A stretch of 64,000 nucleotides of DNA, from contig LYSZ01000012.1 of assembly GCA_001657385.1 (NCBI GenBank), forward strand, positions 1-64,000, given 5' to 3'. A program made the position numbers and the translations under genes. Numbering within the stretch: the stretch's first letter is position 1; the number at the start of each line of letters is the position of its first letter. The notes under the pieces are model-generated. The model had not been told where the DNA came from. It was given only the letters and a program-made list of their open reading frames with translations, and did no database searches. This DNA is from Parvularcula sp. BBD 1991-13 (lineage in GTDB: Bacteria; Pseudomonadota; Alphaproteobacteria; Caulobacterales; Parvularculaceae). Below, one piece after another: positions 36,128-58,114 of this stretch.

Positions 36128-37249
36128 TCAAAACATGCCGATCAGCGTATCGCGGAGCTCCTTGCCGGTTTCGGTCAGGGCATGGGTCGTATTGAGGGCC
36201 TTTTCAAGATCGAGCACCGCCTGCCGTTTTTCGTTGTAGACCTCCATACAGTCAGCATATCGATCGTTTTCCGCAAGGCGCTTGTGAAAGAACGCCATAT
36301 GTGATGATGCGTGGAAAGCCAGGAGAATCATTTCCAACGGGCGCTTGTTCTTTTTCAAAGGAGAAACATAAAGCGTATCGTCTGTCCCGTCGTGAAAGGG
36401 ATAACAGTATTTGAGCAGGTGATAGTACTGGTGCGCGCATTCGTGGACCAGCGTTTCCGCAAGGGCGACATGGCGGATGGGCATTGTAACGGTAATGACG
36501 CCCGGCTGTATGGTCGACGATCCCGATACATGCTTGCCCGTGCCGTCGTCCTTGACGAAAACGGCGAGCCCTTTCAGCGCCCTTCCCACCCAGTCCGAAT
36601 ATTCAGGCGTGTACGTATCGATTAATCGAAATGCGTCCGCAAGCGCACTGGCGAAATCTTCATAATCCAGTCGTTTGCCGGTAATATTCGACAGCGGCCA
36701 GATGGTTTCCTCCCATTCGCCGCGTTCACCTGAAACCGACAATACGTACACTTCTTTCGAGTTATTTCCGCTAACGGTCGTGTCCAGACCATGTCCGAGA
36801 CGAAACAGGCTCCGCGTCACGCCTCCGTCGCAGACGATCGCCGCCCCGCCGCCGGCGCCGCTCCGAATGTTCGTGCAACCGCGATAGACATCGCCGTTCG
36901 AAAGAATGTCCGGGCGCGCCCCATCGAAACTCAGCGCCCAGTCGATCGGGCGAAGGACTTGCTCCAACGCCGTCAGCATCTGTCCCAGGGCCGCCCGCGG
37001 CTCGCCGTTCCTGAGATAGGCGAGGGCGACGCCAAGTTCCGGCCGCCATAACGCCATGCCCGATCCCGGAAGATCGTCGTCGTAGCTTGCCAGCAATCTG
37101 TCAACATCCGCACAGCCCTCAAACGCTTCGCCGGTTCTCCGGATGTTGCGGTAAACCGCTTTGACGTAGGAATTCGCGACAAGGTTTGTGACCTTTCTGT
37201 CGTCGGCGCCGTTTTCTGTCGGGGCGATGAACGGCCTTGCGATTTCCAT
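36128..37249 (-). CDS. HExxH-motif putative peptide-modifying protein (RiPP locus, paralogue 1)
   Basis: LAETLVHECAHQYYHLLKYCYPFHDGTDDTLYVSPLKKNKRPLEMILLAFHASSHMAFF; resembles the TIGR04267-type HEXXH domain; last gene of the RiPP operon. Confidence 0.75.
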   Translation of the reverse strand: MEIARPFIAPTENGADDRKVTNLVANSYVKAVYRNIRRTGEAFEGCADVDRLLASYDDDLPGSGMALWRPELGVALAYLRNGEPRAALGQMLTALEQVLRPIDWALSFDGARPDILSNGDVYRGCTNIRSGAGGGAAIVCDGGVTRSLFRLGHGLDTTVSGNNSKEVYVLSVSGERGEWEETIWPLSNITGKRLDYEDFASALADAFRLIDTYTPEYSDWVGRALKGLAVFVKDDGTGKHVSGSSTIQPGVITVTMPIRHVALAETLVHECAHQYYHLLKYCYPFHDGTDDTLYVSPLKKNKRPLEMILLAFHASSHMAFFHKRLAENDRYADCMEVYNEKRQAVLDLEKALNTTHALTETGKELRDTLIGMF

Positions 37250-37317: not shown

Positions 37318-38538
37318 TCAGGCGCGCTCCCGCAGGCGCCGCCATAGCGATCTCTTGTCGTGTACGATCATGGCTGAAACCGTCATTCCCGGCTGGAGCG
37401 GAATCATGCGCTCGCCAACTTCAAGGGCTTCGCTTGTCAGGCTGGTTTTGATACGATAGGCCGGACCTGATATTCCAATACTTTCCGAGAGATCTTCCGG
37501 ATAAAGAATTGTTTTCGAAACCGAGAGAACTTCCCCCTGGACCGCGCCGTATCGCCTGAAAGGGAAAGCGTCGAGAAAAATCCGAACCTGTTGCCGCTCT
37601 GCGATATGACCAATCGATTTCGCCGACACGAACAGTTCAGCTTCAAGAATCCCGCCTTCGGGGATCAGGGCCAGAAGCAACTGGGCGCCGTTGATGCTTT
37701 GCCCCACATCGACGGGCAGCGCCGCCACGCGTCCGTCCACCGGCGACAGAACGGCCGCGCCTTTCCTGATTTCCAACTCCGTTTCACGGCTTGTCGTGTT
37801 CTGAAGCTCCTTGCGGTACGATGCCAGCGTGGACTGTTTTACCAGCGGCAACTGGTCGAGTTCAACCGACGCTTCGCCCAACTGAGCCTTGAGTTTTTCT
37901 CGCCGCTGCAACAACTCCAGTTTGTTCTGCTCCAGTTCGAGCACTTGCGACTGGTATGCGGCGACCTCGACATGAGAAGTGGCGTCCTCCTGCAACAGTT
38001 CGCGAAACCGCGCCAGCGTCGCTTCGGCGATGGTTGCGCTTTCCTCCAGGACAGCAATTTGCAGGTTCAACTGCGAGAGTTCAAAAGTCAGGTGATCGAT
38101 CTTGTCGTGCAACGACTGCTCCTTGATCGCCATTTCCGAAACAAAGGAGTCTATCTGGATCTGAATTTCTCGCCGTTCATTTTCCAGCGACGTTTTCAGG
38201 GCGTCAATGGCGTTCGTGCCGGCGCTGAGGCCCTGCTGGTGGACGATGTCGATGAGCGTCTGTCCCTTCTGCACATATTCGTTATGCCCCACATGAAGAT
38301 TTTCGACATGACCGTCCACGGGCGACAACACCCGGACGAGCCCCTTGCTCGGTGAAATGCGTCCCGTGGCGCGTTCCGATTCCGAATACGGAAAGAAAAG
38401 GACGATAAGAGCGATGGCGATCGAGAAAATGAAAAGGACGGCGGAAAACAATTTCGTTGAAAGATGAGTCCTCAATATTACATCGCCATAAAGGCGCCGC
38501 GACTGGTGCTCCACTGCTTCCTGTCGAAATATCGCCAT
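37318..38538 (-). CDS. HlyD-family periplasmic adaptor (membrane fusion protein)
   Basis: N-terminal TM; SPVDGHVENLHVGHNEYVQKGQTLIDI; long coiled coil; VLSPVDGRVAALPVDVGQSINGAQLLLALIPEGG. Confidence 0.93.
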   Translation of the reverse strand: MAIFRQEAVEHQSRRLYGDVILRTHLSTKLFSAVLFIFSIAIALIVLFFPYSESERATGRISPSKGLVRVLSPVDGHVENLHVGHNEYVQKGQTLIDIVHQQGLSAGTNAIDALKTSLENERREIQIQIDSFVSEMAIKEQSLHDKIDHLTFELSQLNLQIAVLEESATIAEATLARFRELLQEDATSHVEVAAYQSQVLELEQNKLELLQRREKLKAQLGEASVELDQLPLVKQSTLASYRKELQNTTSRETELEIRKGAAVLSPVDGRVAALPVDVGQSINGAQLLLALIPEGGILEAELFVSAKSIGHIAERQQVRIFLDAFPFRRYGAVQGEVLSVSKTILYPEDLSESIGISGPAYRIKTSLTSEALEVGERMIPLQPGMTVSAMIVHDKRSLWRRLRERA

Positions 38539-38576: not shown

Positions 38577-40697
38577 TCACGCAACGTTGCCTTTTTCCTG
38601 CGTCAGCACCGGTTTGATGTCGGGCGTGACGCGGCTGATGTGGCCGTTCTCCACCCTGTAAACGACATCGGCGCGCCGAATTAATTCCGGTCGGTGCGCA
38701 ATGATCACGCGTGTGATCGGCATGGCGGAGATCGTCTCCCCGATCGCGCGCTCTGATTCCTCGTCGAGATTCGCCGTGCCTTCATCGAGGAACAGAACCC
38801 TGGGTCGGTTGTACAGGGCTCTGGCCAGTAGAATTCGTTGCCGCTGCCCGCCCGACAGGGCGGCGCCCATGTCGCCGACCAGGCTCAGATACGTCATCGG
38901 CATCGCCATGATGTCGTTGTGGATCTGCGCCACCCTGGCGCATTCATAGGCCCAATCTTTATCCGGCGTCGGATCGAAAAAGGTTATGTTGTCGAGAAGG
39001 GTTCCCGACAGGAGCGTGTCGTCCTGCATCACGACGCCGATCTGCGAGCGCCAGGCGCGCAGGCCGAGGCGCGACAGGGGCGCGCCGTCGATCGCGATCG
39101 CACCTTCCTCCGGTTTCAGGAATCCCAGCATAACTTTTAGCAGCGTGCTTTTTCCGCTGCCGGAGGACCCGGCGATCGCGGCGTACTGGCCGGCGGGAAT
39201 CTCTAGGGAGAGGTCTTCGAATATGTAGGGGTCCTGCTTCGAGTATCGAAACGAAACCCGGTCAAGGTAAATGCCGCCCTCAATGGCGCGGTAGGCTTCC
39301 CGGGACGCCATGGCGTCGCTTTCCCTCTCCGCCAGGGCGATGTCCGACAGGCGTTCCAGATGCAACCCGACAAGCTTGAAAGAAATGACTTTCTGAATGA
39401 GTTCGCCGATGCGTTGCGCAAAGGTCTGGCGGTAGGCGAGAAAAGCGAACAGCATCCCTACCGTCATCTGGTCCTGCATCACCAGTACGGCCCCGAAATA
39501 AACGATGGCGCTTAACTGAATGCCGAACAGAAGCGTGTTGAACGCTTCCTGCATGAAAATGGTGCGTTGCAGGTGGATGGAGTCGTTGATGACGTCTGTA
39601 TAAAGATTGCGCCATCCGGCTTCGCGGTCGCTCTCCCGTCCAAACATCTTGATCGCCCGGAAGGCGCGGATGGTCTCGATCTTGTAAGACGACTCCGTGC
39701 CTTCCGTGTAAAGCAGCTTTTCCTGGTAAGAACGAATTTTCGGAATGAGCCATATGCTCGATACAGCGAATATGGTTGTAAATAGCAGTACGAGCAGGGT
39801 CAGTTTCACGCTGTAGAACAGCATGAAGCAAAGCATGATAATGGTCATGACGCCGTCGATAAGGCCGGCCACTGAATCCTGCGTGATGGCCCGCTGGATC
39901 GGCTCGGTCGAATTGATGCGCGTTATGATGTCGCCAATATTTCGTTTTTCAAAATAGACCGACGGCAGACTGAGCAAATGCCGAATCAGGTTGCCGATGA
40001 TCTGAAATGTGAAGTTATGACCGATGGTCATGATCACGTATTTTCGCAGGAATTCCGTCGTCGTGTTGATGAAAACGAGGAGAACGAAGGCGATGCATAA
40101 CGCCAGGGCCATCTGTTGGTCGAATCGCGTGATGGCGTCGTCGATGACCACTTGCATGTAAAACGGCGTAGCGACGGCGAACAACTGCAATATGATGGAC
40201 AGAGCGAGGATTTGCGTCAGCGCCGCCCTGATGCCGGAAATCGACGACCAGAGATGCGATATCCTCAGTCTCGGGATCTTTTCCGGCGGCGACAGGTTGT
40301 TCGTGCGCTCAAAATCGACCGCGACGCCCGTATAGTGCTTCGACGCCTCGGACAGCGACATCTTGACGGCGCCCCTGCCCGGGTCGTGGATCTCGAGCTT
40401 TGTATCCGATGCAGCGGTGAGTACGACGAAATGATTAAGGTTCCAGTGCAGGATCGCCGGCGTCTTGACGTCCTTCAGCCGCGACAAGTCGGCTTTCAGG
40501 GGGCGCGCGGAGAGGCCCACTTCCGCGGCCATCTCCATGAGGTGCCTGAGCGTCAGTCCTTTCAGCGAGGCTGAAAACTTCTGACGCAGCGTCAGGATGT
40601 CGGTCGTCAACCCGTGCGCATTCATGACCATCGCCATGCATGCGATGCCGCATTCCGCCGCCTCGCTTTGGAAAATAACGGGAACCTTATGCTTCAT
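38577..40697 (-). CDS. peptidase-domain (C39) ABC exporter
   Basis: C39: VIFQSEAAECGIACMAMVMNAHG ... PAILHWNLNHFVVLTAA; ABC: IAGSSGSGKSTLLKVMLGF, LSGGQRQRILLARALYNRPRVLFLDEGTANLD. Confidence 0.97.
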   Translation of the reverse strand: MKHKVPVIFQSEAAECGIACMAMVMNAHGLTTDILTLRQKFSASLKGLTLRHLMEMAAEVGLSARPLKADLSRLKDVKTPAILHWNLNHFVVLTAASDTKLEIHDPGRGAVKMSLSEASKHYTGVAVDFERTNNLSPPEKIPRLRISHLWSSISGIRAALTQILALSIILQLFAVATPFYMQVVIDDAITRFDQQMALALCIAFVLLVFINTTTEFLRKYVIMTIGHNFTFQIIGNLIRHLLSLPSVYFEKRNIGDIITRINSTEPIQRAITQDSVAGLIDGVMTIIMLCFMLFYSVKLTLLVLLFTTIFAVSSIWLIPKIRSYQEKLLYTEGTESSYKIETIRAFRAIKMFGRESDREAGWRNLYTDVINDSIHLQRTIFMQEAFNTLLFGIQLSAIVYFGAVLVMQDQMTVGMLFAFLAYRQTFAQRIGELIQKVISFKLVGLHLERLSDIALAERESDAMASREAYRAIEGGIYLDRVSFRYSKQDPYIFEDLSLEIPAGQYAAIAGSSGSGKSTLLKVMLGFLKPEEGAIAIDGAPLSRLGLRAWRSQIGVVMQDDTLLSGTLLDNITFFDPTPDKDWAYECARVAQIHNDIMAMPMTYLSLVGDMGAALSGGQRQRILLARALYNRPRVLFLDEGTANLDEESERAIGETISAMPITRVIIAHRPELIRRADVVYRVENGHISRVTPDIKPVLTQEKGNVA

Positions 40698-40736: not shown

Positions 40737-41834
40737 TCAGGATGCGAAAGCGGCTTCGCTCGGCGCTGTCGCCCCGCCGCGCCAGGACTGGCCTGCGGTC
40801 ACCGTGGCGGCCAGGCGCGAAAGCAGGCGGCATACCTCGTCGCGGTCGTACAAACCTTCGCGCGTCAGAAAGCCGTCCAGCTTCTCAAAGCCGGCATAGG
40901 CGCGGGTTTTGTATTTCCGGACGACGGACGCCTCCGCCGCGTTCCGCTGTTCGATCTTTTTCCACAGGTGGTATAGTCCGTACCAGACGAATACGGCTTG
41001 AATGAGATTATCGACGCTGATGTCGGCGCCGCTCCAGGGGGACTGTATAATTCGCGAGGCGTCGTCTTTCGTGGCGATGTTGCAACCGACCAGATACTCC
41101 AGCATGTACATTGCCGTGTGAATGGATTCGTGAACCAGCGCGTCTGCCAGGTAATGCCTGTCGATCCTGTCCAGATGCGGGTTGGTGAGGGCGGTCAGGC
41201 CGATCATGCCGCGAAACGTTCCCGAGCTGACGACGTTGGGGCGTTCTCTGCATTCGCGAATCCCGAGAATGGCCGTGAAGCTCGAGACGAACCCGGCTAT
41301 CGTCTCTTCTTCATGGATCAGCGCCAGCGCGTTCTCGACTTTGTCGAATACCCGATCCGCGGCGTCAGGCGCATACTCCACCGGCGGCTCCGACCACCGA
41401 ACGATGCCGGAAATGTTGAGTGGGAACGCGATGGTTGAGCGTCTGACCGAGACCGGCACGCCCCTGAGCGCGGACGGGGCGTAGTCGTCGCAGTCACGGT
41501 CCCCGTCCAGCGTCATCCCGAGCGCGAGGAGTGTCAGGTAAGCGACGGTGGAGGGCAGCGCCTCTTCCTCGCTGTAACGAACGGCCTCCACCACGTAGGG
41601 AAGGCGGCAATACGCCGCCAATTGAGCGTCGGACATGGTGTCCACGATGTCCGCCAGCTCCTGGTGTCCCGGGACGTCAGTAGATGCGACATGAGCCGCG
41701 AATACGGCGAAATTGTCCGAACACGCTTTTTCATAGGGGATGATGGCGTTGTTCTGAAAATCGACTGAGCTTTCGTCCCATTCGATAATGGTTGCAAATT
41801 CGCTTAATCGATCAGCCAGCTGATGCAATGTCAT
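40737..41834 (-). CDS. HExxH-motif putative peptide-modifying protein (paralogue 2)
   Basis: YLADALVHESIHTAMYMLEYLVGCN ... IIQSPWSGADISVDNLIQAVFVWYGLYHLW; overlaps paralogue 3 by 23 nt. Confidence 0.72.
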   Translation of the reverse strand: MTLHQLADRLSEFATIIEWDESSVDFQNNAIIPYEKACSDNFAVFAAHVASTDVPGHQELADIVDTMSDAQLAAYCRLPYVVEAVRYSEEEALPSTVAYLTLLALGMTLDGDRDCDDYAPSALRGVPVSVRRSTIAFPLNISGIVRWSEPPVEYAPDAADRVFDKVENALALIHEEETIAGFVSSFTAILGIRECRERPNVVSSGTFRGMIGLTALTNPHLDRIDRHYLADALVHESIHTAMYMLEYLVGCNIATKDDASRIIQSPWSGADISVDNLIQAVFVWYGLYHLWKKIEQRNAAEASVVRKYKTRAYAGFEKLDGFLTREGLYDRDEVCRLLSRLAATVTAGQSWRGGATAPSEAAFAS

Positions 41835-43026
41835 GGCGTTCTCCAGACAGGTTCATGCGATGCGTGCTCAGTTCTTCGAAAACCAGCCGCCCGTTTTCCG
41901 ACAGCCCATCGGCGTTTCGGAAAGTCTCCTCGTAAGCGGCGGCCATTCCTTCGAACCTGCGGACTTCTTTCAGGTCGGCCCTTTTCTCGTCGAGCGCAGC
42001 GAGTCGCAGGTAATAGGAAAGGATATTGATCACGGCGTGATAGGCGATCATATTCTGGTTGAGCGTTCTGTACGCCCGTTTTATCGGCGAATAGAAGAGC
42101 GCCTCGCCCTCGGCGACGGGATATAGCATGGCGAGAAATTCATAGTACTGATGGGAGGCTTCGTGGACCAGTTGTTCCGCTATTAGACTGGCCCGCGCCG
42201 AGGACTGCATGTAAATAAACCCCGGACGCGATCCGCCGCTTCCGCTGAGGCATCGTTCGTCGGTATTCTCGCAGATAAGGGCGATGTACCGCGAGGCGTT
42301 CAGAACCCACAGCAACAGGTCGACGCCGATTTCGCCGAGCAGAGACAGGCCCGCATCCACAGCGAGCACCGTCTCTTTTTCCTCGGCTGCGTATGGTCCG
42401 TCGTAATGGCCTTCTATAGACCAGGAGAGCCTGTCGCGCGCCAGGGCCCCGAAGATGACGTTCGTGTCCAGCGGTTTTCCGTCAATGACGACCGGCCGCA
42501 CATTGTCCGCCAGCGCGCAGACAGACCGGTCTTCGGTCAAGATCCAGAGGCTGTTGCCTTCCTCCTGGGGCGCGCCTTTGTGGGTGACGACGGAGCATTT
42601 GCCGCGCGCCGTTCGGATGCGCATTGCGTCGCCGAGAATATCGATATGGAGAATATCGCCACACGGAGCGCCATTCCAGAAAAGGGTACATGGCCGTTTC
42701 AGGTCAAGTGAAAACCGCCGGCCCATCGCGTCGCCAAGCCGCCAGGCCAGCAACAAATATTGTGCGGCGAATTTCAGCGTATCGAATTCACAGGCGCCGG
42801 TGAGCCGCTCGTTAATGACGCCGATTTCCGGCGACCAGTATTCGGACTTCGCCGAGACGGGCAGCGCAGATAAGAAATCGGCTGCGTCAGTCTCTTCCAT
42901 CTCGCGCAGCCTGTTCGAAAGGCGGTTTCTCGTCGCCTGCGCGTATGAGGCCGCCAGCCCGGGAAAGCTGTCGTAATCATATGCATTCACGGGCAGGCAC
43001 AGGGATCGAATAATTTTCTCTCTCAT
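41812..43026 (-). CDS. HExxH-motif putative peptide-modifying protein (paralogue 3)
   Basis: LIAEQLVHEASHQYYEFLAMLYPVAEGEALFYSPIKRAYRTLNQNMIAYHAVINILSYYLRLAAL. Confidence 0.75.
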   Translation of the reverse strand: MREKIIRSLCLPVNAYDYDSFPGLAASYAQATRNRLSNRLREMEETDAADFLSALPVSAKSEYWSPEIGVINERLTGACEFDTLKFAAQYLLLAWRLGDAMGRRFSLDLKRPCTLFWNGAPCGDILHIDILGDAMRIRTARGKCSVVTHKGAPQEEGNSLWILTEDRSVCALADNVRPVVIDGKPLDTNVIFGALARDRLSWSIEGHYDGPYAAEEKETVLAVDAGLSLLGEIGVDLLLWVLNASRYIALICENTDERCLSGSGGSRPGFIYMQSSARASLIAEQLVHEASHQYYEFLAMLYPVAEGEALFYSPIKRAYRTLNQNMIAYHAVINILSYYLRLAALDEKRADLKEVRRFEGMAAAYEETFRNADGLSENGRLVFEELSTHRMNLSGERHDIASAG

Positions 43027-43241
43027 CGAAGCCTCTGGCTGGCGATGGCGGTTTGCGTTCCGTCAAGGGAAGAACCGGAACTATTCAGGCTGAAGACATG
43101 CGCCGCTGAGATGATTGCCGGATCCGGAACCGAAGGGCCTCGTTTGTCCGGGAGCGGAATGCAGGTGCGCCCATGCGAGGTTGCCCCGATCCACGCACCT
43201 GACTGGCCAGCCGGAGGCGGACTGTCGTTTCGCGGGCTCAC
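43023..43241 (-). CDS. 72-aa orphan ORF translationally coupled between the radical SAM and HExxH genes (GTG start)
   Basis: GTGA overlap with the rSAM stop and ATGA overlap with the HExxH-3 start; (M)SPRNDSPPPAGQSGAWIGATSHGRTCIPLPDKRGPSVPDPAIISAAHVFSLNSSGSSLDGTQTAIASQRLR. Confidence 0.55.
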   Translation of the reverse strand: MSPRNDSPPPAGQSGAWIGATSHGRTCIPLPDKRGPSVPDPAIISAAHVFSLNSSGSSLDGTQTAIASQRLR

Positions 43242-44521
43242 GACAGGCGCCGTAAGATATCGTCGCCGTCGATGCCGTTGTCCAAAAGATAGGACACAAC
43301 GCGGCTATAGATATTTTTCAGTGCCGAACAGTATACCGTCTCCCTTTCGAAACCCGACGCTTCATCAAAACGCGTATTGACCCTTCCGCCGCGGCACAGT
43401 TTCCACCAGTCGCACGCCGCGCATGCGGCCGGGCGGTGTGCGTGAATCGCGGTTCTGATTTCCCTGTACAAATCCGACTGGACGACCGTCTCAAGCCGGT
43501 GATCGAACAGATTGAAGCGGTGTTCGGCGAAACGCCCGCCCAGCGACCTGATCACGTCGTCCATGCCCACGTCGCCCGCGCTTGACACGGTGAAGACGTT
43601 CGACATGTCCTCCCTGTAGGGAGCGAAATGCTTCATCTCTTCATCCGAGCAAAAGCATGCGATCAACTCGGAAAAAAACCGGACCGTGATGTCTTTCCGG
43701 TCATCCCGGGTCCATTCCTGAAAAACGCCCAGCATGAAGTCTTCAGTGCCTTTGACGATTTTCGGCGTTATCGTGTCGTGGGTTTCGTCAAGCAGCAGGA
43801 AACTGAGCCGGCGGAAGCCCAGTTCATCGACAAAGTGCCTGTAAGCGGCGGCGCCGGACCCTTCCGGGTCGACTACGCTCAGCAATCCGGGATTGCCCAT
43901 TCGACCTTCGGCGGCGGCCCCCTGAAGGAGCCGCAACCCTTTCAGCGCGTTCTGGTAGGAGCCGCGCCCCTGGTGGTCAATTCTGTAGGCGTCGTTCCGC
44001 GCCTCGTCGCCGTCCAGACTGACGCCGACGGACATGCGCCATTTCGCGAAAAGGTCGACCCAGGTTTCATCGATCAAGGTGGCGTTGGTCTGTACGGAAA
44101 ACGAATAGTTGCACAAACCTTCCAGGGCGGCTGACAATGCCTCGCATAATGCGTCAAAGCGCTGCGGCTTGAGCAGCAGGGGCTCGCCGCCGTGGAAGAC
44201 GATGGCGATGGTCTTGACGCCGGAGAGCGCCGCCGAACTAGCGAAATCGCATAATCCGTTTACAGAATCTTCAGTAATGAGGGCGGGGTGAGACTCGTAA
44301 CTACGGTCCTTGTGAAAAAAGAAATAGCAATAGGTGCAGGCAAGATTGCAGCGTTCGGCAACCTTTACGATCAGCTCCATTCTTTCCGGAATCGCAAAAG
44401 GCGCCGGCGCGTTCGCCGGGCGCTCGCCAGCGCCGGCGGTCAACGCATCTCCCGCCATCAATGTATCTGGCAATGTATCTGATGTCATATCGCAACCTTG
44501 GGGCGCATAAACGGTCATCAT
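43238..44521 (-). CDS. radical SAM/SPASM peptide maturase (cyclophane-forming-like)
   Basis: ERCNLACTYCYFFFHKDRSYESHP (CxxxCxxC), VFHGGEPLL, VQTNATLIDETWVDLF, VGVSLDGDEARND, SPASM Cys set CAACDWWKLCRGGRVNTRF...CSAL. Confidence 0.92.
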   Translation of the reverse strand: MMTVYAPQGCDMTSDTLPDTLMAGDALTAGAGERPANAPAPFAIPERMELIVKVAERCNLACTYCYFFFHKDRSYESHPALITEDSVNGLCDFASSAALSGVKTIAIVFHGGEPLLLKPQRFDALCEALSAALEGLCNYSFSVQTNATLIDETWVDLFAKWRMSVGVSLDGDEARNDAYRIDHQGRGSYQNALKGLRLLQGAAAEGRMGNPGLLSVVDPEGSGAAAYRHFVDELGFRRLSFLLLDETHDTITPKIVKGTEDFMLGVFQEWTRDDRKDITVRFFSELIACFCSDEEMKHFAPYREDMSNVFTVSSAGDVGMDDVIRSLGGRFAEHRFNLFDHRLETVVQSDLYREIRTAIHAHRPAACAACDWWKLCRGGRVNTRFDEASGFERETVYCSALKNIYSRVVSYLLDNGIDGDDILRRLS

Positions 44522-44621: not shown

Positions 44622-44643
44622 GGCGCCGCCCGAAGGCGGCGCC
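44622..44643 (-). promoter_or_regulatory. RNA hairpin with UUCG tetraloop between precursor 1 and the maturase
   Basis: Minus-strand RNA GGCGCCGCC-UUCG-GGCGGCGCC, perfect 9-bp stem. Confidence 0.75.
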
Positions 44644-44662: not shown

Positions 44663-44833
44663 CTAAAGAGAATCGGCGAACTGATCGGATTTGCTGTGGC
44701 CGGTGGTCGTCCTGCTGTAGCCGCCGCCGCTGACGATATCGAGATGCGCTTCGATCAGGGTGCTCAGTTCCCCGGCATCCACGATGGCGTCTTTGTTCTG
44801 CCTCTTGGCTTCGATAATACTGCGTATGCTCAT
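44663..44833 (-). CDS. RiPP precursor peptide 1 (56 aa, double-Gly leader)
   Basis: MSIRSIIEAKRQNKDAIVDAGELSTLIEAHLDIVSGGG|YSRTTTGHSKSDQFADSL; next to rSAM and C39 exporter; tandem paralogue at 45191-45361. Confidence 0.92.
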   Translation of the reverse strand: MSIRSIIEAKRQNKDAIVDAGELSTLIEAHLDIVSGGGYSRTTTGHSKSDQFADSL

Positions 44834-44969
44834 GAAATAGCTCCTGTTGGGGATAGTTTCAAAAATGAAATACACAAACATGAAATGTTAAAAAAACAAT
44901 CCATAACATTCAGAAAGCTAATTTAACATTATTACATTGGCACAATAAAATAACCCGTCTAATCAATAG

Positions 44970-44992
44970 GGATTACTGTTTTGTAAGAATTC
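44970..44992 (-). promoter_or_regulatory. Candidate promoter box upstream of precursor 1
   Basis: Minus-strand GAATTCTTACAAAACAGTAATCC, near-identical to the box at 45498-45520. Confidence 0.45.
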
Positions 44993-45053
44993 AAAATCCT
45001 TGTGCGGATGTTCAGTTTTCGTCAAGCGCTTCGCCGCTTTCGTTGCGGGTTTT

Positions 45054-45073
45054 CTGTATAGACTTCTATACAG
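45054..45073. promoter_or_regulatory. 20-bp near-perfect palindrome (operator or processing site candidate)
   Basis: CTGTATAGA-CT-TCTATACAG, 9-bp arms with 2-bp centre. Confidence 0.5.
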
Positions 45074-45149
45074 GCGTCGCAGCCGCTGGTTCCGACTCTA
45101 CAGATACTATGGGGCGTCTCAGTTCATCTCTCCGGCATGGCCGCGCGTC

Positions 45150-45171
45150 GGCGCCGCCTGAAGGCGGCGCC
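45150..45171 (-). promoter_or_regulatory. RNA hairpin after precursor 2 (UUCA tetraloop)
   Basis: Minus-strand RNA GGCGCCGCC-UUCA-GGCGGCGCC, same 9-bp stem as 44622-44643. Confidence 0.75.
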
Positions 45172-45190
45172 TGAGCGATTGCTTTCGATT

Positions 45191-45361
45191 CTAAAGAGAA
45201 TCGACAAACTGATCGGATTTGCTGTGGCCGGTGACGCGCCGGCTGTAACCGCCGCCGCTGACGATATCGAGATGCGCTTCGATCAGTGTGCTGAGTTCGC
45301 CGGCGTCGACAATGGCGTTCTTGTCCTGCCTCTTGGCTTCGATAATGTTGCGTAAGCTCAT
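45191..45361 (-). CDS. RiPP precursor peptide 2 (56 aa, double-Gly leader)
   Basis: MSLRNIIEAKRQDKNAIVDAGELSTLIEAHLDIVSGGG|YSRRVTGHSKSDQFVDSL, read from the reverse complement; only the antisense ORF appears in the track. Confidence 0.92.
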   Translation of the reverse strand: MSLRNIIEAKRQDKNAIVDAGELSTLIEAHLDIVSGGGYSRRVTGHSKSDQFVDSL

Positions 45362-45497
45362 GAAATAGCTCCTTTGTTATAATGAACTCATCAATAAAAT
45401 ATTCAAAAATTCAGTGTCAAAAAGTGCTCTTCAAGTAATGGAGCACAAGTTTAACGGTTTTATATTGTCACAATAAGATGCGCCGTCTAATCAATAA

Positions 45498-45520
45498 GGA
45501 TTACCGTTTTGTAAGAATTC
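45498..45520 (-). promoter_or_regulatory. Candidate promoter box upstream of precursor 2
   Basis: Minus-strand GAATTCTTACAAAACGGTAATCC, part of a conserved block (45469-45524 vs 44941-44996). Confidence 0.45.
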
Positions 45521-45885: not shown

Positions 45886-46971
45886 ATGAAAAATATAAAA
45901 AGATACCTGTCGATGCTGCTTCTCGCCATGGTCATTCCGGCGAATGCGGGCGCCGCCATTCGTATCCAGGCCGAGTACCACCCGCCGACGAATCTCTTTG
46001 CCCTGATGGATGGCGTTTCCGGCTGGGCGTTCAACGATCCCGCCTACCAAGAGGCATGGCGCCGGCGCTTCGGGTGGTCTGAAAGGGACCGGCATGTCGC
46101 TTCCGGTTACAAGCGCTATCGCGATCGCACATTTCACGACCCCGTACAAAAGGATAGGCGATACGGGGCGCGTAATGACGGCATGTTCGCGGCGCGCTCA
46201 TCCTATTCGGCCGACGCCGATCCTCTTGCCCGAAATTTCATCGGGGCGAAAACCATCGAAGACGCTCTTGCATCGCTTGAAGACGTCGCATCGGCTGAAG
46301 ACGCCGAGTTGCTGCGGGAATTTTACGAACATTTTCGGGCGCGCTGGTCGGCCATTCTCGATGAAAGCAGGGCGTTCGCCGTTCAGGCAGAGGCGTTGAA
46401 CGGTGAATTGCAGGACGAGCGCGTCGCCGCCTATCTCGCCCGGACCAGCGATTTCTACCAGGTCGAGGCCCAGTACGAATTCAACGTACGTTTTGTCTGG
46501 TGGCCGCCGATCGGGCGAACCTTCGCAGATATATCCGGACAAACGTTTCTTATACGGTCGCATCCGCAACGTCATGCGCGGCGGGACGACGTGATCGAAA
46601 TCGTCATGCACGAAGCTGCGCACTACATCAGCGCCAGCCAGCCGGCGGAACAAAAGCGTAAGCTTACGGACGAATTTCTCGGGACCTGCTCCGCCAGTGC
46701 CGATAACGACTTCTACCTGTTGGAGGAGCCCCTCGCCGTGGCGTGGGGGCAGGCCGCATTTGCGAAGTACGGCCGCGGAAAACCGCTCGATCCGGGTGAA
46801 AACTGGTATCGTCCCCCCATACCGGACATTATGGGGCGGCTGCTCTGGCTGCATATCGACGGACTCTACGAAACCGATGCGACCATCACCGACGGGATCA
46901 TTGCAACGGCCGCCGGGTACTGCGCGCGTCTTCTGGATATCGGCGCGGAGCTGGAGCGAGGAAGGCCTTAG
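45886..46971 (+). CDS. secreted protein with HExxH metallopeptidase-like motif
   Basis: Signal peptide MKNIKRYLSMLLLAMVIPANAGAA; DVIEIVMHEAAHYISASQP; acidic residues in LLEEPLAVAWGQA. Confidence 0.7.
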   Translation: MKNIKRYLSMLLLAMVIPANAGAAIRIQAEYHPPTNLFALMDGVSGWAFNDPAYQEAWRRRFGWSERDRHVASGYKRYRDRTFHDPVQKDRRYGARNDGMFAARSSYSADADPLARNFIGAKTIEDALASLEDVASAEDAELLREFYEHFRARWSAILDESRAFAVQAEALNGELQDERVAAYLARTSDFYQVEAQYEFNVRFVWWPPIGRTFADISGQTFLIRSHPQRHARRDDVIEIVMHEAAHYISASQPAEQKRKLTDEFLGTCSASADNDFYLLEEPLAVAWGQAAFAKYGRGKPLDPGENWYRPPIPDIMGRLLWLHIDGLYETDATITDGIIATAAGYCARLLDIGAELERGRP

Positions 46972-47272: not shown

Positions 47273-47857
47273 GTGAACAAGAAGCTGCATGAACAGAATA
47301 TCGTTCACTTCCCGCATAATAAAAATGCGACAGCTGAACGTTCACGGCATATAGAGGCGCTGTATAAGAGCCACTGGCGCGAGATTTGCGCCAGATTACG
47401 CAAAGTATTCGGGGCAGGCCCTCCAGAGCCGGAGGATCTCGCCCAGGAGGCCTTCGCCAAGTTCACGGCGTTGCCGGGCCATTCCCGAGTAAAACATCCG
47501 CAGGCCTTTCTTTTCAAGACAGCGCTTAATCTGGGTTACGATTCCATCAAGAGGGTTGCGGTTGCCCGCCGGCATATTGAAATGGCTTTGCAGGAGGCGG
47601 ATCTTGCCTTGATGGAACAAAATTCGCCTGAAGACGTCTATTCTTTGCAAGAGCGTTTGACAGTCACCACAAGAGCGTTCAACGGGCTCTCAGAAAAACA
47701 ACGCGAGATCGTGATCCGGAGCCGGATTTACGGCGAATCATTTGCGCAGATCCGCGCTGCTACAGGATGGAGTAACGGCGACATCCACCGGCAACTCAAA
47801 GCGGCCCATAAGATTCTCAGAGCCCGGGTGCAAGAGGCTGAGGGAACGGACGAGTAA
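47273..47857 (+). CDS. ECF RNA polymerase sigma factor (FecI-like)
   Basis: LYKSHWREICARLRKVFGAGPPEPEDLAQEAFAKF...LSEKQREIVIRSRIYGESFAQIRAATGWSNGDIHRQLKAAHKIL. Confidence 0.9.
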   Translation: MNKKLHEQNIVHFPHNKNATAERSRHIEALYKSHWREICARLRKVFGAGPPEPEDLAQEAFAKFTALPGHSRVKHPQAFLFKTALNLGYDSIKRVAVARRHIEMALQEADLALMEQNSPEDVYSLQERLTVTTRAFNGLSEKQREIVIRSRIYGESFAQIRAATGWSNGDIHRQLKAAHKILRARVQEAEGTDE

Positions 47858-47863
47858 AAGAGT

Positions 47864-48871
47864 ATGATAAGCAAGCTGAATAATATCCCGGACATCTCTC
47901 ATTCCTCGGATCCGGAAGACGCCGCGATCGAGTGGCATATTTATCTGTATTCTGAGAACGCCTCGGATGACGGGCGGGCGAAATTTGAGGCATGGCTAAA
48001 GCAGTCCCCCGACCATGGGCGCTTGTTCAAGGAAATCGAGACGAACTGGCGTGATCTTTCGCTGGTTGAGAATATCGAGGATGAGCTTGTAAGCGGTTCC
48101 CAGAATACAGAACGCGAACGGGGCGACAGGGTCTCCCGCCGCACCATGGTTGCAGGAGGCGCAATTGCCGCTGCATTGGCGGGCGTTGTGTTGTTGGGTG
48201 TTTCCGAGCTTTCGTCGCCAAAAACCCAGGCGCGGCATGCGTCGTCAATTGGCGAAATCAAGAGCGTCGGCCTGCCGGACGGCAGTATCGTCACGCTCGA
48301 CAGCAATTCAACCATTGAGATTACCTTCTCAAAAAAGACACGGTCGGTGACGTTGGTCAGGGGGCGGGCCCATTTTGACGTTGAGCCGGAAACGAGGCGC
48401 GCGTTCACGGTGGATGCAGGCCTGGGTCGCGTTACCGTGGTCGGGACCGCTTTTGATTTGTGGCGCAAGGATGACGCGCTCGATGTTTCCGTCGTGGAAG
48501 GCGTAGTGGAATTTGCGCCAACGGAAAAAGACCGCGCCGTATCGTCAACATCATTGGCTGTGGGGGAACGTATTATTGTTTACGGAAACGGCGTTATGTC
48601 CCAAAAGCGGGACTTCGATCCGTTCCAAAGCGAAGAGTGGCGCGCCGGCCGCATCGACTATGAGGATGCTCCGCTCGGCAATGTGATTGAGGACATCAAC
48701 CGATATCGCAGAAAACCAATCAGAATTATCGATAGCGAGTTGAACGCCATCCGCCTGACGGTAGGGGTTCGTGTGGATCAATCAGATATTTTCCTGGCTG
48801 GTCTTGAAGCGACGCAACCCATATCCGTCCGTGAAACCCAATATGCCGTGAACCTATACAAAAAACGTTGA
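47864..48871 (+). CDS. FecR family protein
   Basis: DPEDAAIEWHIYLYSENASDDGRAKFEAWLKQSPDHGRLF; SIGEIKSVGLPDGSIVTLDSNSTIEITFSKKTRSVTLVRGRAHFDVEPETRRAFTV. Confidence 0.93.
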   Translation: MISKLNNIPDISHSSDPEDAAIEWHIYLYSENASDDGRAKFEAWLKQSPDHGRLFKEIETNWRDLSLVENIEDELVSGSQNTERERGDRVSRRTMVAGGAIAAALAGVVLLGVSELSSPKTQARHASSIGEIKSVGLPDGSIVTLDSNSTIEITFSKKTRSVTLVRGRAHFDVEPETRRAFTVDAGLGRVTVVGTAFDLWRKDDALDVSVVEGVVEFAPTEKDRAVSSTSLAVGERIIVYGNGVMSQKRDFDPFQSEEWRAGRIDYEDAPLGNVIEDINRYRRKPIRIIDSELNAIRLTVGVRVDQSDIFLAGLEATQPISVRETQYAVNLYKKR

Positions 48872-49017: not shown

Positions 49018-51870
49018 ATGATGCGGGGATTGGGGATAAAGGCGTTGGCGTTTGCGAGCGTAGTTGGGTTCGCGCCATCGCAATCTTTCGCTCAGCTTAC
49101 AACCTATACGCTGGATATTCCGGCGCAATCCCTGAATGGCGCTCTTGTGGAGCTTTCGCGGCAAACCGGCCTGCCGATCATAGCTGCGCATAATGCGTTG
49201 GCCGGTCTCGATGCGCAGTTATTGCACGGCGATTACGCCATTGACGATGCGCTGGATATTCTACTCGGAGAAACCGGTCTTACGGTTCAGCGAGGCGGCG
49301 GCGGTTCTATCTACATTGCGAATCGACCCAATGAACAGGTCTTGAATGCCGCGCCCCCGGCGCCCGTAAAGCCGCTTGACGGCGCAACCGTCCTTGACAG
49401 GATTATTGTGACTGGCGCCCGGTTGCAAAACCAGCGTGCGATTGAGGTAAAGCGTTCGAGCCGTCTTATTACAGATCATATTGCATCAGATGAAATTGGT
49501 CAGTCACCGGATTTCAACGTCGCTGACGCCTTCCGCCGGGCCCCGGGGGTCAATACAATTGCAGATGAAGATGAAGGACGATACATTGCCCTCAGAGGCC
49601 TCAACGCCGACTTTACCTTTGTGACTTTGGATGGCGGCAGCCTTGCGTCCTTGGACCTGGGCGGGGACTTTGGAGGAGGCCGCCGCGTTCTTCTGGAGAC
49701 GATTCCTTCGTCCGCCGTGACCCGTCTTGAAATCATAAAATCCGTCGACGCATCGAAAGACGGTCAGGGTATTGGCGGCCAGATTAACTTAGTGACAAGA
49801 AGCGCGTTCGACGTCGACGACAGCTTCTTCGTGGGAACGGTCTTGGGGGGGTATTTCGACAAACAGGATGTGCCGACAAGCGCACGCAAGCCGTCATTGC
49901 GTTCTGACATCGTCTATTCGAAAGTGTTTGGCGCAGAAAGGAATTTAGGCATAGTCCTTGCGGCGTCGTACAATATCAAGAACCGTGACCAGGAGAGGGT
50001 CGCGTCGCGCGCACAGCAATATGTCGATCGCGACCTGAGTATCGTGCCGCCTCAGAACGGAACTGACCTTCTTCCATTTGGCACCTATCTTCCGTTAAGT
50101 TACCGAAATAAGGTTCATCGCCGCGGCGGCCTGGCGAAGTTGGAAATTGCACCCGATCCGTCAGTGTCTTCAGATTTTCTTTTTAGCTATTATGAGCAAA
50201 TTGACGACGAACGCCGTAACGATACTCTTATTGCAGGGGGCGCCCCGGTCGGTCGGACTGATTCTTCTCTTTTCATTCAAGATGCTAGATACTTGGTTCG
50301 TTTGCAGGAATGGGACATTAAAAAATCAGTGCTAAACAGTCAGTATTCGATACAAGCTGACGTTTCATCTCTCGATCGCATATCGGCGAAGGTTAATTAC
50401 TCAACCTCCACATGGCGTGAGGACGCGCCGCGCTTGTCTTTCGAAAGCGATATCGCGTTGCGTTATCAGATCACCCATCGCAATGAGCCGCTGCCGCCTG
50501 TAGTCCGCACTGAAATTGAGACAGACTCTGAAGGTTTCATTAATAGCTTCAATGATTTCAGTTTTGCGCAGCGTGATGATATCGAAGAATCCAAACTATT
50601 CGAGGCGAAGCTGGATTGGTCGCATAATGACGACATAAATCTGGGCGGCGTCGGCTTCGCTGCCGGAGGTTTGTTTCGAACTCAAGAAACTATATTCGAT
50701 AGGGATATCATTTTTTTTGAAGACGGTCCCAATCCCGGGCGTGTGACGCTGGAAGCGGTGTTGCAACCGTCGTTGCAAGGATCTCGATTTTCCCTCGAAG
50801 GACAGGGCTTTCCGCAAACCTTCATCGATATCGACAGGTTCATTCAGCTGGTTGAAGAGTCGGATGACGGCGATTTTGCAATCCGCCTTGATGAAACGCG
50901 CCGCGCCAGCCAAGCGCAAGACTTTCATTTCAGCGAAATCGTCAAGGCGGGGTTTGTGCAAGCGCGGTATCGCACGCCGGCATTTCTTGTGACGGGCGGC
51001 GTACGTATTGAACACACGACTTTTGATAGCGGCGATAACAATTCGTATACTAATGTCCTGCCGTCGCTTTCAGCAACCTACAGCCTTACCCGCGACTTTC
51101 TTATTCGAGCGGGCTATTCGAAAACGCTTGGCCGGCCCGACATCCGCAGTCTCGCGGCCGCGAGCAGCACTGATATCGATTCCAATGCGGGTGTGACAAT
51201 TATCAATGAGCCGAATATAGAATTGCAGCCTCGTATCTCCGATAATGTTGATGTCTCATTTGAACGCTATTTTAAAGGGAATGAAGGGATAGTATCGCTT
51301 GCGTTATTTCATAAGCGCATAAGGAATAATATTTTTATCCGGTCAACCCTTCTGGATAACGGTCAAACAATTTTGAGCCAACCCAAAAATGATTCCGAGG
51401 CGGAGATTTCCGGCCTTGAGTTTGGGGTTGCCGTCAACAACCTCCATGTCTTGCCGGCGCCTCTGGATAACATTGGGGTTTCCGCAAATCTCACCCTGAT
51501 CAGGGCGCGTCAGGATATTGACAGCGAGGACAGCCTGAATTTTTTGCGCGAGCAACCCGAGGTAATTTTCAACTCGGCATTATTTTACGAGTCGGACCGT
51601 TTCGACGCTCGTCTTTCTTATAATTATGTCGGCGATTACGCGACGCTGATTGTATCGGACGAACCTGAGAGAAGCCGGTTTGAGCGCGCCCGGGGACAGC
51701 TTGACGTCGCGATGCAGTACAAACTTACCGGGAACGCCCGCCTTATTGCCGATGCACGGAATGTCCTTGGCGCCGATCGAACCACCCTTACGGGACCAAA
51801 CAGAGAGTTCGTTTCGGAATCAAATATGTTCGGGCGATCCTTTTTTATCGGTGCAACGATCAATTACTAA
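49018..51870 (+). CDS. TonB-dependent receptor with STN domain
   Basis: STN: LDIPAQSLNGALVELSRQTGLPIIAAHNALAGLDAQLLHGDYAIDDALDILLGETGLTVQ; plug ADAFRRAPGVNTIADEDEGRYIALRGLNADFTFVTLDG. Confidence 0.95.
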   Translation: MMRGLGIKALAFASVVGFAPSQSFAQLTTYTLDIPAQSLNGALVELSRQTGLPIIAAHNALAGLDAQLLHGDYAIDDALDILLGETGLTVQRGGGGSIYIANRPNEQVLNAAPPAPVKPLDGATVLDRIIVTGARLQNQRAIEVKRSSRLITDHIASDEIGQSPDFNVADAFRRAPGVNTIADEDEGRYIALRGLNADFTFVTLDGGSLASLDLGGDFGGGRRVLLETIPSSAVTRLEIIKSVDASKDGQGIGGQINLVTRSAFDVDDSFFVGTVLGGYFDKQDVPTSARKPSLRSDIVYSKVFGAERNLGIVLAASYNIKNRDQERVASRAQQYVDRDLSIVPPQNGTDLLPFGTYLPLSYRNKVHRRGGLAKLEIAPDPSVSSDFLFSYYEQIDDERRNDTLIAGGAPVGRTDSSLFIQDARYLVRLQEWDIKKSVLNSQYSIQADVSSLDRISAKVNYSTSTWREDAPRLSFESDIALRYQITHRNEPLPPVVRTEIETDSEGFINSFNDFSFAQRDDIEESKLFEAKLDWSHNDDINLGGVGFAAGGLFRTQETIFDRDIIFFEDGPNPGRVTLEAVLQPSLQGSRFSLEGQGFPQTFIDIDRFIQLVEESDDGDFAIRLDETRRASQAQDFHFSEIVKAGFVQARYRTPAFLVTGGVRIEHTTFDSGDNNSYTNVLPSLSATYSLTRDFLIRAGYSKTLGRPDIRSLAAASSTDIDSNAGVTIINEPNIELQPRISDNVDVSFERYFKGNEGIVSLALFHKRIRNNIFIRSTLLDNGQTILSQPKNDSEAEISGLEFGVAVNNLHVLPAPLDNIGVSANLTLIRARQDIDSEDSLNFLREQPEVIFNSALFYESDRFDARLSYNYVGDYATLIVSDEPERSRFERARGQLDVAMQYKLTGNARLIADARNVLGADRTTLTGPNREFVSESNMFGRSFFIGATINY

Positions 51871-51891
51871 TTCGGTCGACGATACCCGTGT

Positions 51892-51905
51892 GAATAATTT
51901 ATGAA
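51892..51905 (+). promoter_or_regulatory. Diverged copy of the ECF promoter-like element
   Basis: GAATAATTTATGAA, 12/14 match to GAATTTTTTATGAA. Confidence 0.35.
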
Positions 51906-52016
51906 GAAGCTGAATTCGTTGGGATAAACAAAAGGCCCAATCGTCTCCCCTCAGTGCAATGTCGTGAAGGCAAGCCATACGGTGTGGCGCTGTCGATTAG
52001 TGGAGGGGCATATCAA

Positions 52017-54635
52017 ATGAAATCGGTTGTTTTCAAATCTACGCTTATGGCGGCGGCGGCTGTGCTGCCGCTTATGGGGCATGTCGCGGCGCAGGACGCC
52101 GAGGCTTCTGTTTCCGCCGACGAAATTATCGTGACCGGCTTTCGCCTGGAAAACCGGTTAGCAATTGCAGCCAAGCGCGAAAACAGGCTCATCGCCGACT
52201 TTCTCGCTGCTGATGAAATAAACCGGAGCCCGGATTTCAACATCGCCGACGCTTTCCGGCGGATTTCCGGCGTGAACACAATTGCCGACGAGGATGAGGG
52301 GCGATATGTGGCTTTGCGCGGGCTCAATCCCGACTTTACATTCGTTACAATCGACGATGGCGGCGTGGCGGCGCTCGATCTCGGGGGCGACTTTGGCGGC
52401 GGGCGTAGGGTGCTGCTCGAGGTCATCCCGTCGTCGGCCGTTTCGCGGATCGACGTCCTGAAATCGTCCGATGCGACGCTCGACGGCCAAGGCATTGGCG
52501 GTCACATCAATCTCGTCACCCGCAGCGCATTTGACGTCGACGATACGTTTTTCGTCGTCAACGGTTTTGTCGGTTACTTCGATAGCCAGGATGTTCCCAT
52601 CAGCGAGGGCAATCCTATTTCGTTTAGAACCGACGCCACATTTACAAAGCGCTTCGGGGCGAATGGCGAGTTTGGCGTTGTCGCGTCAGGGTCTTACCAA
52701 TTGAAAAGGCGCGATCAGGAACGGGTGTTCTTCAACGACGCCACTTACCTTGACGAAGACCTTAATTCGGTGACGCCGACCGAAGGCGATTCCTCGCTTG
52801 TCGCGTTTGGCACGATCGTGCCGCTCAGCTATCGCAACAACGTCACTCGTCGAGGCGGCTTGATCAAGCTCGAGCATTCGCCCGTCGATGCGTTTTATCA
52901 GAAGCTGCAACTCAACTATTTCGAACAAATTGACGATGAGCGGCGCAACGACACCATCATCGGCGGCGGCACGGCGGTTTCCAGAACCGCCGACTCCGTC
53001 AATGTCGAAGGGGCGACACGGCAGGCGCGGTTGCAGGACTGGCAGATCGAAAAGCATGTCCTGCATGCTCAGTATGCAGCGGACTGGGCTTTTTCCGAGA
53101 ATGACGATTTATCCATTAAGGCCACTTATTCAAACTCCCGTTGGTATGAAGACGCGCCGCGCGTCGGATTCCGCAGCTCAGTGCCGCTTGACTACAATGT
53201 TCGCCTCGGCGTTGGCGACGGGCCGGTTATTACAACCGTCAATAATCCGGATTCCGGCGTTCTGGATCCATCAACTTACGGAACGGTGGACTTTCCTCAC
53301 CGGTTCGACGATGAGACGGAAGATCTCTTTGAGGCCAAGGTCGACTATGCGCACAATCTCGGCGCGGGTGATCTTGGCTTCGGCGTGCGCGCCGGCCTTA
53401 AATTCCGTCGCACGGAGCGCGAGTTTGATCGTGACGTGTTTATCTACGGCGATGGGCCGAACCCCGGCGAAGTAAGGTTGGTCGACGTTCAGCAAGAAAA
53501 CCTGATCGGCAATTCATATAGCGCGCCAGGCACCGGTTTGCCGCAACTCTTTATCGACATTGATGAGTTTCTGGAGATATTCAACAACGCCGCGCCCGGC
53601 GACTTCGCCCTCAACGAAGCGGCGACCGCGTCATCAAACACGCAGCAGGACTTTCTCGTTGAGGAAGAAGTGGCGAGCGCATACGCTCAAGCCGCTTATC
53701 GCACGGACCGTCTGGCTCTGGCGGCCGGTTTGCGCATCGAAGAAACCTCGACGGACACGGTCTCGCCCGTTGGCGACGCGTCCGGCGACACCGTCGCGGG
53801 CTCATCGTCTTATGTAACGCTCTTGCCGTCTGCTTCGGCGACATACGACTTGGCCGACGACATGATCGTCAGGTTGTCTTACTCACGCAATGTCGGGCGA
53901 CCCGACTTCCGCAGCCTCGCAGGCGTTCTGCAAATCGACGTAGAACAGCAGGGTGTAACGCGGATCAATCAGGGAAATCCGGATTTGCGGCCGCGCATCT
54001 CGGACAATATTGATTTCTCGCTTGAAAAATACTTTGACGACGGCGACGGTCTCGTTGCGTTCGGTATTTTCCATAAGGAAATTTCAGATAACATCTTTAC
54101 ACGCACGACGGTTTCCGACGACGGTCTCACGATCATCAATCAGCCGGAAAACGTCCTTGATGCGTCGGTCAGCGGGATTGAATTTACGATTATCAAGAAC
54201 TCGCTTGATTTCCTGCCGCGGTTTCTTCACGACTTCGGTTTTTCAGGAAACGTTACCCTCATCTCCGCGGAGCAAACGATCGACGATGACGGCACGACGA
54301 TCAACTTCCTGAACGAACAGCCGGAGCGCCTCGCGAATGCGCAATTGTTCTACGACAATGGGGCGTTTGACGTGCGGCTCACCTATAACCACACGGGTCA
54401 ATATGCGACAACAGTGAACATCAATACGCCGGCGCGCTCGCGTTACGAAAGTGATCAGCACTGGGTAAATCTGTTTGCGTCATATGAAATAAACGATAAT
54501 TTCCGTCTGGTCGGCGATATTCGAAACTTGTTCAATGCTGATCGTCGTACAGTGCTGGGGCCGAACCTCGACTGGACACGCGACTTCAACAGCTTTGGCC
54601 GGGCTTTCCATGTGGGCTTTACCTATAACTACTAA
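52017..54635 (+). CDS. TonB-dependent receptor lacking STN, paralogue of the preceding receptor
   Basis: ADAFRRISGVNTIADEDEGRYVALRGLNPDFTFVTIDDGGVAALDLGGDFGGGRRVLLEVIPSSAVSRIDVLKS; signal peptide from internal Met. Confidence 0.94.
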   Translation: MKSVVFKSTLMAAAAVLPLMGHVAAQDAEASVSADEIIVTGFRLENRLAIAAKRENRLIADFLAADEINRSPDFNIADAFRRISGVNTIADEDEGRYVALRGLNPDFTFVTIDDGGVAALDLGGDFGGGRRVLLEVIPSSAVSRIDVLKSSDATLDGQGIGGHINLVTRSAFDVDDTFFVVNGFVGYFDSQDVPISEGNPISFRTDATFTKRFGANGEFGVVASGSYQLKRRDQERVFFNDATYLDEDLNSVTPTEGDSSLVAFGTIVPLSYRNNVTRRGGLIKLEHSPVDAFYQKLQLNYFEQIDDERRNDTIIGGGTAVSRTADSVNVEGATRQARLQDWQIEKHVLHAQYAADWAFSENDDLSIKATYSNSRWYEDAPRVGFRSSVPLDYNVRLGVGDGPVITTVNNPDSGVLDPSTYGTVDFPHRFDDETEDLFEAKVDYAHNLGAGDLGFGVRAGLKFRRTEREFDRDVFIYGDGPNPGEVRLVDVQQENLIGNSYSAPGTGLPQLFIDIDEFLEIFNNAAPGDFALNEAATASSNTQQDFLVEEEVASAYAQAAYRTDRLALAAGLRIEETSTDTVSPVGDASGDTVAGSSSYVTLLPSASATYDLADDMIVRLSYSRNVGRPDFRSLAGVLQIDVEQQGVTRINQGNPDLRPRISDNIDFSLEKYFDDGDGLVAFGIFHKEISDNIFTRTTVSDDGLTIINQPENVLDASVSGIEFTIIKNSLDFLPRFLHDFGFSGNVTLISAEQTIDDDGTTINFLNEQPERLANAQLFYDNGAFDVRLTYNHTGQYATTVNINTPARSRYESDQHWVNLFASYEINDNFRLVGDIRNLFNADRRTVLGPNLDWTRDFNSFGRAFHVGFTYNY

Positions 54636-58056: not shown

Positions 58057-58114
58057 GATGTCGGCGGAAGAAAACAACGGAAAGACGACACAATTTATTG
58101 ATGAGGACACGCAT

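Follow-up and report, generated by a model that had tools for sequence, protein, structure and literature searches.

A probable triceptide-type RiPP cluster with paired precursor peptides and three aKG-HExxH oxygenase homologues in Parvularcula sp. BBD 1991-13

We found that a 64,000-nucleotide stretch of contig LYSZ01000012.1 from Parvularcula sp. BBD 1991-13 (hereafter, the window) probably encodes a triceptide-type RiPP pathway, in which a radical-SAM enzyme would form rings in two similar precursor peptides, aKG-HExxH enzymes would add beta-hydroxyl groups, and a C39/HlyD system would cut after Gly37 and export the core. The genes, their homologies, selection on the precursors, leader grammar, and co-occurrence with related genes elsewhere were observed, and from these we infer the chemistry at each step and the function of the product. 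The cluster would belong to a known family, the triceptides, as a branch that has no name, and it is exceptional in how many oxygenase homologues it contains. An initial annotation of this DNA had read the cluster correctly but said nothing of its three aKG-HExxH genes, of the duplication of the regulatory unit, or of the low-GC island.

Results

The two precursor genes lie on the minus strand at 44663-44833 (gene 1; product MSIRSIIEAKRQNKDAIVDAGELSTLIEAHLDIVSGGGYSRTTTGHSKSDQFADSL) and 45191-45361 (gene 2; product MSLRNIIEAKRQDKNAIVDAGELSTLIEAHLDIVSGGGYSRRVTGHSKSDQFVDSL), each encoding 56 aa behind the ribosome site AGGAGC. The initial annotation had described two near-identical 56-residue frames here; both are present and are identical at 49/56 positions, and the hyphen in its "SGGG-YSR" marks no alignment gap. 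Lack of purifying selection, which it had named as part of what would count against its reading, is not what the copies show: 17 codons differ, with 12 synonymous vs. 9 nonsynonymous changes (pS 0.32, pN 0.069; dS 0.42, dN 0.072; dN/dS ~0.17; Fisher p = 1.9e-4). Both genes are thus under purifying selection and are not chance frames. No further copies were found in a search of the genome itself and 58 relatives. The radical-SAM enzyme has no close homologue in the genus members searched, so there are no close orthologues and the selection test concerns the two copies alone.

The predicted cut after Gly37 leaves a core of 19 residues (GYSRTTTGHSKSDQFADSL for gene 1 and GYSRRVTGHSKSDQFVDSL for gene 2). 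Three triplets in it begin with an aromatic residue (Y-S-R, H-S-K, and F-[AV]-D). The first two had been recognized as conserved before, but the third, which is the least conserved of them, had been overlooked. Within the core, nonsynonymous differences affect residues 42 and 43, in the linker that follows Y-S-R, and residue 53, the central position of F-x-D. The leader carries L(-15), L(-12), L(-7), V(-4), and GG at -2/-1. This agrees with the published C39 rule of a GG/GA end plus hydrophobic residues at -4, -7, and -12 (PMC10885120), and the earlier assignment of a C39-type double-glycine leader is therefore upheld. The predicted downstream C39 exporter was also located: a 706-aa C39 peptidase-ABC protein (38577-40697, minus; Peptidase_C39, ABC_membrane, and ABC_tran; TIGR03796, 470 bits), accompanied by an HlyD-type periplasmic adaptor (37318-38538, minus).

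The duplication covers the whole unit: two stretches, one of 232 nt including the gene (88% identity) and one of 77 nt upstream of it (84%), recur at a spacing of 528, and the sequence between these conserved stretches has drifted apart in the two units. Alignment of the units revealed a conserved 38-base upstream block (44955-44992 in unit 1 and 45483-45520 in unit 2, both minus), a putative promoter or operator. It occurs nowhere else in the genome and is confined to the two precursor genes; a role as a genome-wide regulon site was rejected because there are only these two genomic occurrences. Each gene is also followed by an identical 9-bp G+C hairpin (44622-44643 after gene 1 and 45150-45171 after gene 2, both minus; GGCGCCGCC-TTCG-GGCGGCGCC on the minus strand) without a T-run. 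The z value is -4.4 after gene 2, and likewise -4.4 for the 78-nt stretch of the gene 1 hairpin region. The hairpins may represent an attenuator or an mRNA 3' end. Scans for sigma-70 promoters and terminators at the precursors gave nothing beyond chance.

The adjacent gene (43238-44521, minus) encodes a 427-aa XyeB-like radical-SAM/SPASM peptide maturase with a CNLACTYC motif. Its scores are below the curated cut-offs of all three models compared (XyeB, 291 vs. 450 bits; YhhB, 230 vs. 445; FxsB, 216 vs. 370), and its best solved relative is the radical-SAM domain of ChlB (9gm3, E 1e-36). In a tree of 23 sequences, it forms a clade (support 98/96) with seven other enzymes (from Polyangium fumosum, G709, G626, G820, Pseudoalteromonas, and two Paracoccus). 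True XyeB lies outside this clade, and YhhB falls in another part of the tree. The clade members tested scored 253-327 bits with the XyeB model, and the enzymes of Xenorhabdus (559) and G037 (450.3) pass the cut-off of 450. No NCBIfam match was obtained for the clade precursors tested. Since the clade enzymes tested are below the XyeB cut-off and the tested precursors have no NCBIfam match, they constitute an unnamed subfamily. Judged by its sequence, the window enzyme groups with XyeB-like cyclophane enzymes, in a supported sister clade that carries no curated model name. Such enzymes are rare, occurring in 4/387 genomes of the class (E 1e-50) and 5/399 of the phylum (E 1e-55), this genome included. 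PADLOC returned only generic radical-SAM (viperin) matches.

The combination of radical-SAM, HExxH, and C39 genes also occurs in Polyangium (L007), G709 (L126), G626 (L123), and G820 (L139). Homologues near radical-SAM/C39 genes elsewhere, whose absence the initial annotation had likewise taken to count against it, are therefore present. In all precursors of the set, the leader ends in GG or GA, with Leu at -12 and a hydrophobic residue at both -7 and -4; the Polyangium cut site was read by eye as ...LIEAHIDEVTGG|GFSLHVQFKQQQK, the script having chosen an earlier GA. Analogous aromatic-x-x triplets appear in every clade precursor: GYSR..GHSK..F[AV]D in the window, FSL-HVQ-FKQ in Polyangium, FGR-FLR-H[SN]K in Paracoccus, HSS-WNR in G709, HGS-HGS-HAS-HLS in G626 and G820, and five Y-x-Q in Pseudoalteromonas. 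The order Tyr/Phe, His, Phe is common to the Polyangium and window cores. The earlier suggestion of three-residue cyclophane motifs is consistent with these results, in that the adjacent radical-SAM enzyme groups with XyeB/YhhB-type enzymes and independent clusters share the aromatic-x-x grammar, and we infer cross-links at the core triplets from such sequence patterns.

Several loci in this set deserve mention in their own right. The five-Y-x-Q precursor of Pseudoalteromonas (L090:6677-6913) adjoins an unannotated radical-SAM gene of the same clade, with no aKG-HExxH gene. The four-H-x-S precursors (L123:6814-6990 and L139:10366-10545) lie beside radical-SAM, HExxH, and C39 genes and are candidate all-His cyclophane peptides. 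Precursor-like frames with NFVSA repeats (L009:9617-9862, L010:9591-9749, and L006:3163-3468) precede XyeB-like radical-SAM genes and represent a different substrate type. A gene for a secreted protease-like protein is also present in several related clusters; this protein is of the aspartyl type in Xenorhabdus, M61-like in G037, and an HExxH protein in Pseudoalteromonas.

Three aKG-HExxH homologues are encoded on the minus strand, all above the TIGR04267 cut-off of 40 bits. HX1 (41812-43026; HEASH; 45.9 bits) and HX3 (36128-37249; HECAH; 90 bits) are peptide beta-hydroxylase homologues, and HX2 (40737-41834; HESIH; 45.4 bits), whose first 23 bases lie within the 3' end of HX1, is a divergent homologue of an SPWSG subfamily. 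All three frames are intact and keep HExxH. Any TIGR04267 match was found in 19/399 genomes of the phylum, with three in this genome and two, on separate contigs, in one other; this genome alone among the 399 has more than one aKG-HExxH gene at one locus. HX1 and HX3 resemble HExxH proteins adjoining radical-SAM genes in L007, L123, and L126, and HX3 matches ChlH and a second radical-SAM/HExxH chain in the PDB. Of the S-P-x-[KR] and R-P residues that follow HExxH in most of the other enzymes, HX3 has the full set, HX1 has the K and R but not the P, and HX2, with SPWSG in their place, has neither the K/R nor the R-P; HX2 may therefore perform other chemistry or none. It nevertheless matches ChlH by sequence, and the first fold match of its model is ChlH (8s5f, E 2.6e-5), followed by SjiH; the model (mean pLDDT 50) is confident only in its C-terminal half and usable from about residue 154 on. 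SPWSG recurs in proteins of L129 and L131, and as PWSG in L116; no radical-SAM gene of this kind lies near the HX2-like proteins of these three loci. At L129:3960-9431 and L131:6354-9718, the HX2-like proteins stand beside a conserved protein of about 280 aa and FtsX-like membrane proteins, possibly another RiPP system that uses the SPWSG subfamily.

A His triplet was found in 4/4 independent lineages with stand-alone HExxH vs. 1/8 without it, the exception being Paracoccus (one-sided 5/495, ~0.01, from a small hand count that ignores phylogeny). As Paracoccus has a His triplet with no nearby HExxH gene, the link between hydroxylase and His is not strict. On the radical-SAM tree, HExxH requires six changes, and 151/500 shuffles are as low; a single gain is thus not indicated, and the association appears recurrent or patchy, without demonstrated ancestry.

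The cluster lies in a stretch of lower GC content (0.50-0.60 across ~35-60 kb vs. 0.64-0.70 to the left). On the plus strand, this stretch also carries an ECF sigma gene (47273-47857) and FecR (47864-48871), followed by tandem TonB-dependent receptors (49018-51870 and 51954-54635), the first of which has an STN signalling domain. The two receptors share 49% identity, and their identity to receptors of 58 relatives does not exceed 36%. The RiPP cluster and the sigma/FecR/receptor set were probably acquired as one island, and the set may be the uptake and signalling arm of the cluster. A putatively secreted HExxH protein of 361 aa (45886-46971, plus; MHEAAH), encoded divergently from the precursors and of uncertain cluster membership, has no NCBIfam match, no Pfam match above cut-off, and no homologue in 290 genomes of the class; its single-sequence AlphaFold model has a mean pLDDT of 36. 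A second sigma/FecR/TonB-receptor set flanks the cluster on its other side (33068-31231, minus; 33266-35929, plus), and its receptor scores 173 bits for the siderophore-receptor model, under the cut-off of that model. A metallo-beta-lactamase-fold protein (54700-56016, plus) is encoded near the end of the low-GC stretch, which ends with two proteins without a family match (56359-58056 and 58028-59119).

Discussion

In the pathway we propose, the radical-SAM/SPASM enzyme would recognize the leader up to Gly37 and link each aromatic residue, through its ring, to the C-beta atom two residues further on in Y39-S-R41 and H46-S-K48, with F52-[AV]-D54 as a probable third ring. For Y-S-R and H-S-K, the nearest published precedent is YhhA/YhhB, where YhhB links C3 of Tyr and C2 of His to the C-beta of Arg (PMC11002830). 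Because the window enzyme is under every curated family cut-off, the ring chemistry is extrapolated. Next, at least one of the three aKG-HExxH enzymes would add beta-hydroxyl groups, most likely at His46 and Asp54/Asp50. By analogy, this would resemble ChlH, which hydroxylates His and Asp of a peptide with preinstalled cyclophanes (PMC12636437). The C39 exporter and HlyD adaptor would then cut after Gly36-Gly37 and export the 19-residue product. Calculated monoisotopic masses of the cores without modification are 2056.945 (gene 1) and 2138.051 (gene 2); with three rings they would be 2050.898 and 2132.004, and each hydroxyl would contribute a further 15.995. The duplication would supply two product variants, distinguished by the linker that follows Y-S-R and by the central residue of F-x-D.

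The number of HExxH genes invites other readings of their function. At least one of the enzymes might act like PflC or PosC, breaking the peptide backbone close to the C-terminus by oxidation or hydrolysis so that the core is trimmed and left with an amide end. These two members of the superfamily provide precedent, as they carry out oxidative backbone cleavage in which alpha-hydroxylation is favoured at small residues (PMC12636437). Three HExxH genes for a 19-residue core also leave room for a second reaction, and HX2 belongs to a distinct subfamily. However, the core has no ARMD motif, and the kinship of HX1 and HX3 is with the enzymes beside radical-SAM genes in L007, L123, and L126, which makes backbone cutting unlikely in our assessment. 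The cluster might instead be partly decayed, with HX2 or another paralogue persisting as an inactive relic or a pseudo-enzyme scaffold. The missing K/R and R-P residues of HX2 would fit this, but HExxH is preserved in three intact frames, and SPWSG or PWSG is common to HX2-like proteins in L116, L129, and L131; since it recurs in other genomes, the motif is a subfamily feature and not a sign of decay, and we do not expect decay to be the explanation.

Alternative readings of the product itself must also be weighed. An exported peptide that binds metal or other cargo, or that acts as a self-imported signal, might re-enter through the TonB receptors under ECF sigma/FecR control; this seems distinctly unlikely to us. 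It is suggested by the position of the sigma and FecR genes (47273-48871) and tandem receptors (49018-54635) next to the cluster on the same low-GC stretch (~35-60 kb), and by the greater similarity of the receptors to each other (49%) than to any in 58 relatives (at most 36%). Beta-hydroxy-Asp and beta-hydroxy-His are known siderophore ligands, which adds to the appeal of this reading; a detailed version, for which our expectation is just as low, has the cyclophanes fixing the backbone, beta-hydroxy-His/-Asp serving as metal ligands, and the paired receptors importing both variants. Conversely, sigma/FecR/TonB-receptor sets are common in genomes of this kind, no such set was noted (although not in a systematic search) at L007, L012, L088, L123, or L126, and the precursor upstream block is confined to the two precursor genes. 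Isopeptidase-type lasso peptide clusters, which pair with TonB receptors and sigma/anti-sigma genes and for which re-uptake has been proposed, offer a parallel (PMC9266682). Given this parallel and the adjacent receptor set on the same low-GC stretch, re-uptake is a reasonable hypothesis but not a finding. Two small GG-leader peptides with a C39 exporter could also suggest an unmodified bacteriocin pair (class IIb style) next to an unrelated radical-SAM gene. We give this very little credence: the peptides are near-copies rather than complementary, the core is short and hydrophilic, and clade radical-SAM enzymes elsewhere accompany GG/GA-leader precursors with aromatic-x-x triplets.

As a triceptide-type cluster, the window system can be compared with several known ones. 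Like XyeA/XyeB of Xenorhabdus (TIGR04495 and TIGR04496; XncA/XncB), it has a short GG-leader precursor before radical-SAM/SPASM, HlyD, and C39 genes, and three aromatic-x-x triplets, often aromatic-x-basic (WVN, FAR, and WDK in XyeA). Unlike that system, its precursors match no XyeA model, its maturase scores 291 bits vs. 450, its core has Tyr and His in place of Trp, and it has three aKG-HExxH enzymes in addition. The YhhA/YhhB system differs in its maturase (230 bits vs. 445 for the window enzyme) and in its partner YhhC, annotated as a 2OG-Fe(II) oxygenase. ChlB/ChlH of Chlorogloeopsis, a fused radical-SAM-aKG-HExxH system, is matched by the radical-SAM enzyme (9gm3) and the HExxH proteins (8s5f), and the order proposed here, cyclophane first and then His/Asp hydroxylation, would be shared; unlike the fused protein, the window has the activities on separate proteins, with three hydroxylase homologues from two subfamilies. 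PflC/PosC and BpmH are likewise stand-alone aKG-HExxH enzymes in RiPP clusters, but those clusters use MNIO or B12-rSAM rather than a XyeB-like cyclophane enzyme.

The results delineate an unnamed sister clade of XyeB with recurrent stand-alone aKG-HExxH enzymes and with precursors in which Tyr, Phe, and His are preferred to Trp. With three oxygenases from two subfamilies and two natural substrate variants, the Parvularcula cluster offers a system for questions of residue choice, of whether each enzyme is devoted to a single ring, and of what the SPWSG subfamily does. According to a 2025 paper, triceptide bioactivities had not yet been elucidated (PMC12257519), and the receptor set, if it belongs to the cluster, would provide a handle on what triceptides are for.
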